Of a stretch of 64,000 nt of DNA, positions 17,789 through 58,434 are shown piece after piece. Within the stretch, counting starts at the first letter, position 1. Every line of letters starts with the position of its first letter. Source of the stretch: Verrucomicrobia bacterium LW23 (lineage in GTDB: Bacteria > Verrucomicrobiota > Verrucomicrobiia > Methylacidiphilales > UBA1321); the NCBI GenBank assembly GCA_003054695.1, contig QAZA01000023.1:1-64000 (forward strand). The letters are read 5' to 3'. The position numbers were made by a program, and so were the translations under genes. Below the pieces are notes generated by a model that did no database searches, had not been told where the DNA came from, and was given only the letters and a program-made list of their open reading frames with translations.

Positions 17789-17832
17789 GAGGGGAGTTTT
17801 TAAGAAAGGGAAGTGCTGAGAACAGGGATTAT

Positions 17833-17937
17833 CCGAACCTTGGTGTCTTGGTGACTTGGTGGTTAAACTTCCTTCAAAACGCATTGCGTTTGAGAGAAGA
17901 GTTTAACCACCAAGTCACCAAGACACCAAGGTTCGGA
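17833..17937. repeat. Perfect 37-bp inverted repeat of the AACCACxAAG family
   Basis: Arms 17833-17869 and 17901-17937 are exact complements over 37 bases around a 31-base loop, which contains its own palindrome (AAACGCA-T-TGCGTTT). The arm reads GTTTAACCACCAAGTCACC, then AAGACACCAAGGTTCGG, with about 9-10-base periodicity. It lies between the isomerase start and the terminator of the upstream gene. Confidence 0.95.
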
Positions 17938-57828: not shown

Positions 57829-57961
57829 GGTGCAAGAACCCGCGCAGTCTGCGCGAACCGCTCCCCGCATTCAACACGAAAACACCCGGCTCCCCCAAAT
57901 AAACTGAGACTGGGACCGAATATCAGAGGGCTCTTTCCTGATGATAAGTCAGAAACAAGAG

Positions 57962-58111
57962 TTTACTCACCGCCTCCCCTCCGCCCCTTTGTGCCTTCGT
58001 GTCTTTGTGGTTAAATCTCACCATCTCCCCCTCTGCGGAGAAGGGGATTGGGGATTGTTTAACCACAAAGACACGAAGGCACAAAGGGGCGGAGGGGAGG
58101 CGGTGAGTAAA
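57962..58111. repeat. Perfect 54-bp inverted repeat of the AACCACxAAG family
   Basis: Arms 57962-58015 and 58058-58111 are exact complements over 54 bases, around a 42-base loop that pairs partly with itself (CTCCCC with GGGGAT). The arm reads TTTAACCACAAAGACACGAA, then GGCACAAAGGGGCGG and AGGGGAGGCGGTGAGTAAA. The first 31 bases follow the family pattern; the rest is unique to this locus. It is the longest perfect palindrome in the window. Confidence 0.97.
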
Positions 58112-58150
58112 AACCTGATGATGCGAATTTCAAACTCGCGACGCAGCGAC

Positions 58151-58390
58151 GAGGCGTATGGGGAAACGCCTCCGAGAACCTCGAAGAGGTTCCATAACAT
58201 AGCCCAGGGTTCCCCGAGTAAAGCGAGGGAACCCTGGGTAAAGTTGAAGTAACGAACGACCCCAACGCGGGTCGTATCCCGCTGTTGCGCAGAGGGATAC
58301 AACTCACGTTGGGGTTGATCGCATTAGGATGCCTTTCCCAGGGTTCCCTCGGGGAAACCGGAAAGGTTATACAGCCTCTTTGAGGATGTA
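58151..58390. repeat. Multi-hairpin intergenic unit between exbB and dapL
   Basis: Five to six stems follow each other: GAGGCGT/ACGCCTC (58151-58172), GAACCTC-GAA-GAGGTTC (58176-58192), CCCAGGGTTCCC/GGGAACCCTGGG (58203-58238), CCCCAACG/CGTTGGGG enclosing GTATCCC/GGGATAC (58261-58314). Elements are shared with the units at 19.9, 47.0 and 60.3 kb. The remaining spacer 57829-57961 and 58391-58434 shows no gene. Confidence 0.8.
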
Positions 58391-58434
58391 AGATCTTGTT
58401 GCGCCGTGCTTTACAGTTGGTGGCAATCTCCCGT

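Follow-up and report, generated by a model that had tools for sequence, protein, structure and literature searches.

A 54-nt perfect palindrome beside an ExbB-family gene, probably an old MITE-like element with one arm overwritten by the other

The palindrome described here lies, in the 64-kb stretch of DNA that was analysed (hereafter, the window), between a MotA/TolQ/ExbB-family gene on its left and a class I/II aminotransferase gene on its right, both encoded on the minus strand. Its arms (57962-58015 and 58058-58111) pair at 54 of 54 positions around a spacer of 42 nt, and there is no pairing beyond them, since the match stops exactly at the arm ends. The 54-bp perfect palindrome of the original prediction is thus borne out, and so is its placement between exbB and a multi-hairpin unit. 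The multi-hairpin unit (about 58171-58394) belongs to a separate repeat family that has 75 genomic matches when the two orientations are counted together, and whose members also adjoin palindrome copies at C25:2559, C45:381756 and C45:617428. Each palindrome arm contains a core (57980..58015 on the left, composed of inverted 8-nt phased CACNAAGN units, and 58058..58093 on the right), delimited by the 54/54 pairing and by comparison with 57 family copies; the spacer (58016..58057) is partly self-complementary and its orientation agrees with that of the outer ends of the same copy. No other closely spaced perfect inverted repeat in the window is as long, and the second longest (38 nt, 17832-17937) is a member of the same palindrome family, whose motif, AACCACNAAGNCACNAAG, has 14 occurrences in the window when two mismatches are allowed (0.12 expected). 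As single-stranded DNA, the region has a fold z-score of -19.4, relative to 200 dinucleotide shuffles.

When the search was extended to the 6.6-Mb genome, AACCACNAAGNCACNAAG gave 83 forward and 68 reverse matches with at most one mismatch, and a reversed control pattern gave none. We collected 57 paired copies, the studied palindrome among them, in which the arms read outward from a spacer; the list may be incomplete. Since every copy was recruited by the core motif or by a query like it, any comparison of core and end decay is biased, and a slower decay of the core cannot be claimed. The outward arrangement was observed in three of 388 genomes of a phylum sample that included the source genome, the other two having one match each, and the exact single motif had no match in 11 genomes of the same family. 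Some genomes of another family of the same order have many matches, often paired inward, and G020 and G033, of the same order, have many core-motif matches, some of them paired inward, opposite to the source genome. A plasmid search with positions 57930-58400 retrieved no match, and a literature search with core sequence strings gave, among the papers listed, none on the palindrome repeat. The family element has a loop of ~48 nt flanked by an inverted core of ~38 nt, with differing sequences, A and B, outside the core. In copy L062 (265-450, G000:C45), the 8-nt unit of one arm has expanded into a tandem array (AGCCACGA, 23.2 copies, 98% matches).

Although the A and B sequences differ, both terminate in TCTGAYTYAGGASAC in young copies. 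These copies end in TGTCCTGAGTCAGAA-type inverted repeats adjoining TA/CTAG, as IS630-type insertion sequences at contig ends do, and their terminal inverted repeat, TGTCCTGARTCAGAARTA, is the one present at 12 contig ends. Sixteen of the 24 recognised family ends are followed by TA, a dinucleotide that accounts for 2.5% of the positions in the window, and 10 of the 24 lie within CTAG. At the 12 contig ends, the end GTGTCCTGAGTCAGAAATA is followed by TA in 12/12 cases, a pattern to be expected where the assembly was interrupted by a repeated insertion sequence. A second, near-identical end type, CTAG-TGTCCTGTGTCATAAATA, precedes an open reading frame whose N-terminus best matches the IS630 transposase model (E 5.8e-19, under the full-length cut-off, the frame being a fragment) and whose first 109 residues match helix-turn-helix families. 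The IS630-like element with this end is present in contigs C10, C22, C38 and C50 of G000, where it runs off or near contig ends. A DDE_3 search identified several IS630-type genes, and the eight loci inspected were without the family end, except L214, where the end belongs to a MITE copy. Neither an intact autonomous partner nor a transposase with the exact family end was found in the assembly, and the exact end had no match in viral contigs or in the other relatives searched. Considering the shared ends, the TA/CTAG context and the IS630-like reading frame, the palindrome family seems best described as MITEs with IS630-type ends, and the nature of these ends suggests mobilisation in trans by a cognate transposase.

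The outer parts of the studied arms had been regarded as locus-specific, and this does not hold: the sequence is absent at the other loci of the window, but related sequence is present elsewhere in the genome. The GGGGAGGCGGTGAGT-like outer sequence (the B extension) is found in a single arm of L032, L033 and L034, the three clear one-arm relatives, and in both arms only in the studied copy. One arm of L074 matches the B extension weakly, and the R arms of L043 and L059 score highest against L033 B type (25 and 24). The pattern has a chance rate of ~0.9% per shuffled arm, and single matches therefore mean little.

The outer right arm (58094..58111, GGGGAGGCGGTGAGTAAA), aligned with L033, has B-type family sequence and is the putative donor. 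It runs on as in L033 (GGAGGGGAGG(C/T)GGTG(A/G)GT, followed by the B-type end), and its tail, a decayed right transposon end (58112..58139), resembles the B-type end with a score of 12 that none of 5000 shuffles reached, compared with 3453/5000 for the A type. The outer left arm (57962..57979, TTTACTCACCGCCTCCCC), outward of the shared GGAGGGGA, has B-arm-type sequence on the A side, and would contain the converted tract. It is preceded by a decayed left transposon end (57936..57961, TCCTGATGATAAGTCAGAAACAAGAG), which resembles the A-side end of L033 (12/13 match; 9/5000 shuffles as good), is weakly related to the young A consensus (620/5000) and shares 11 consecutive nt, TTTCTGACTTA, with the B-type end (15/5000). 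The probabilities given for these alignments, and for the permutation tests described below, are descriptive, since the tests were designed post hoc and several scoring schemes were tried. The flanks beyond the 54-nt arms are thus unequal, with a B-type end on the right and an end like the L033 A side on the left. Both ends are remnants, in which TA is not preserved and there is no CTAG.

We hypothesize that the studied copy is an old, decayed MITE-like palindrome with IS630-type ends, one arm of which was probably overwritten by the other. The ancestral copy would have been a quasipalindrome with ~38 matched bases and with A and B sequences differing outside the core. An inverted copy of the B (right) arm would then have taken the place of its outer A-side (left) sequence, most likely either through quasipalindrome correction, in which replication switches template across the hairpin, or through conversion between the arms, bringing the ~38 matched bases to 54. 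The tract that distinguishes the two states would have ~16 bases (16-18 bp), and the event may have spanned the whole arm. The left arm is read as the overwritten one since a family sequence otherwise found in one arm is now in both, with unequal flanks outside. Comparison with the paralogues revealed what a template switch is expected to leave, namely an arm replaced by the inverse complement of the other, between flanks that are unequal. It is from this pattern that we infer the direction, the single event and the enzymatic route. An orthologous palindrome locus was not found: the nearest aminotransferase in another genome (Verrucomicrobia bacterium Tous-C9LFEB, locus L098, 82% identity), by which the source genome appears related to the Verrucomicrobia, has different neighbours, and among 80 loci the motif is present only in L100. 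Timing and conversion were, therefore, deduced from paralogous copies.

The palindrome may instead belong to a lineage whose two arms both had B-type sequence, in which case the studied copy could simply be recent, inserted perfect from such a donor and too young to have diverged. Several young copies do keep perfect 38-nt arms (L029, L038 and L044), but the decay of both ends of the studied copy, and the absence from every other collected copy of its outer sequence in both arms, make recency unlikely.

The original prediction considered that the palindrome is either recent or maintained by template switching or conversion between arms. An event of this kind fits the studied copy, where one-arm family sequence occupies both arms between unequal flanks, but active maintenance of arm matching is not supported. 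Within-copy arm similarity does exceed that of class-preserving permutations (as good in 0/5000 for the core and 54/5000 for the extension), and L053 and L082 are other copies whose extensions match best within the copy. Nevertheless, this similarity does not mean rapid correction, since the differences in young copies are all confined to one arm: eight young, little-changed copies have nine single-arm differences, three of which correspond to one single-base insertion, and none common to both arms. Family-wide, 18 private core variants are present in one arm and none in both. Arm-to-arm copying looks rare, the studied copy being its clearest case.

The same observations bear on the hypothesis that selection keeps the long stem perfect, as a hairpin of DNA or RNA that lies between the aminotransferase and exbB-like genes. 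The predicted fold is very stable (z = -17.5 for the minus-strand RNA, far stronger than dinucleotide shuffles), and arms more alike within copies than when permuted would be in line with such selection. A pairing constraint, however, does not predict that the additional pairs should be the family sequence of the other arm, and the arm differences of young copies are uncorrected. Furthermore, the sole terminator-like site detected is outside the palindrome, its count (one) equals the shuffle mean, and the whole window has no Rfam match at gathering thresholds. We consider this selection improbable.

The proposed overwriting of one arm by the other may have a counterpart in the spacer. In three copies (L025, L038 and L041) the spacer runs opposite to the orientation expected from the outer ends, an outcome that exchange between the arms should also produce. 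Published work attributes to template switching between inverted-repeat arms both the homogenisation of arms and the inversion of spacers (PMC8604942), as well as the creation or repair of perfect stems (PMC8794818). Homologous recombination between the arms could be an alternative route to homogenisation and flips, and assembly error may account for the flips in the three copies. For the studied copy itself, duplication of one arm by an assembly or error-correction artefact is very improbable: the genome is a draft of 56 contigs with at least 12 contig ends in a repeat, and inverted repeats can confuse assemblers, but the flanks of the 150-bp element are unequal, its arms are identical for 54 nt and no further, and the relatives carry related sequence in one arm.

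Mobilisation as a REP element, through a REP-associated tyrosine (Y1) transposase, is the least credible explanation: the genome has five Y1_Tnp matches, one of them ~0.6 kb from family copy L053, but only one in five is near a collected copy, the foot of the studied copy has no GTAG/CGTC tag and the ends are IS630-like with TA. We thus rejected a REP/RAYT origin, the association with RAYT genes being restricted to that one of the five Y1 genes. The arm extensions of L053, the copy close to this gene, are nearly matching.

If one arm was indeed overwritten in this way, one perfect palindrome can be explained by the copying of an arm, once, in the relic of an old transposon, and perfect palindromes in draft genomes need not imply selection or constant repair. 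Outside the core, the two sides of family members normally differ, which provides built-in markers with which arm-copying events may be dated and counted. More tentatively, and with considerable doubt, we suggest that this MITE family, nearly confined among the sampled genomes to one lineage, has a long inner palindrome that makes its arms exchange sequence repeatedly. If true, template-switch mutation would have left a natural record, in the form of arm overwriting, spacer flips and expansion of the 8-nt unit, in a bacterium of which only the genome is known here.

Both the element and the mechanism are of known kinds. GTAG repeats were reported in Verrucomicrobia (O. terrae) (PMC3733652), and GTAG/CGTC-tagged REPs with RAYTs are, like the palindrome family, dispersed intergenic palindromes (PMC3733652). 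The palindrome family differs from them in its longer arms, its IS630-like ends and the lack of a consistent link to Y1 transposase genes. Neither tag is present at the arm ends of the studied copy; in young copies, GTAG is observed a few bases outside one arm. IS630/Tc1-mariner-derived MITEs, like the palindrome family, are short, have no gene of their own and have terminal inverted repeats with TA, often CTAG, beside the ends. ISY100, of the IS630 family, inserts almost exclusively at TA, which it duplicates (PMC2170065), and a preference of IS630 for CTAG is named in the title of a 1991 paper cited in the same work. The palindrome family departs from these MITEs in its long inner palindrome of 8-nt phased CACNAAGN units and in that the cognate transposase is absent from the assembly, so that its mobilisation is deduced from the ends. 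Finally, in quasipalindrome template-switch mutation, as proposed for the studied copy, one arm is copied and arm identity is extended, and spacers are also expected to be inverted (PMC8604942; PMC8794818; PMC3820800). What sets the studied copy apart is that the mutation would have taken place in the past, in a repeat that has since decayed, and that the copied tract would measure at least about 13-16 nt and at most the full 54 nt.
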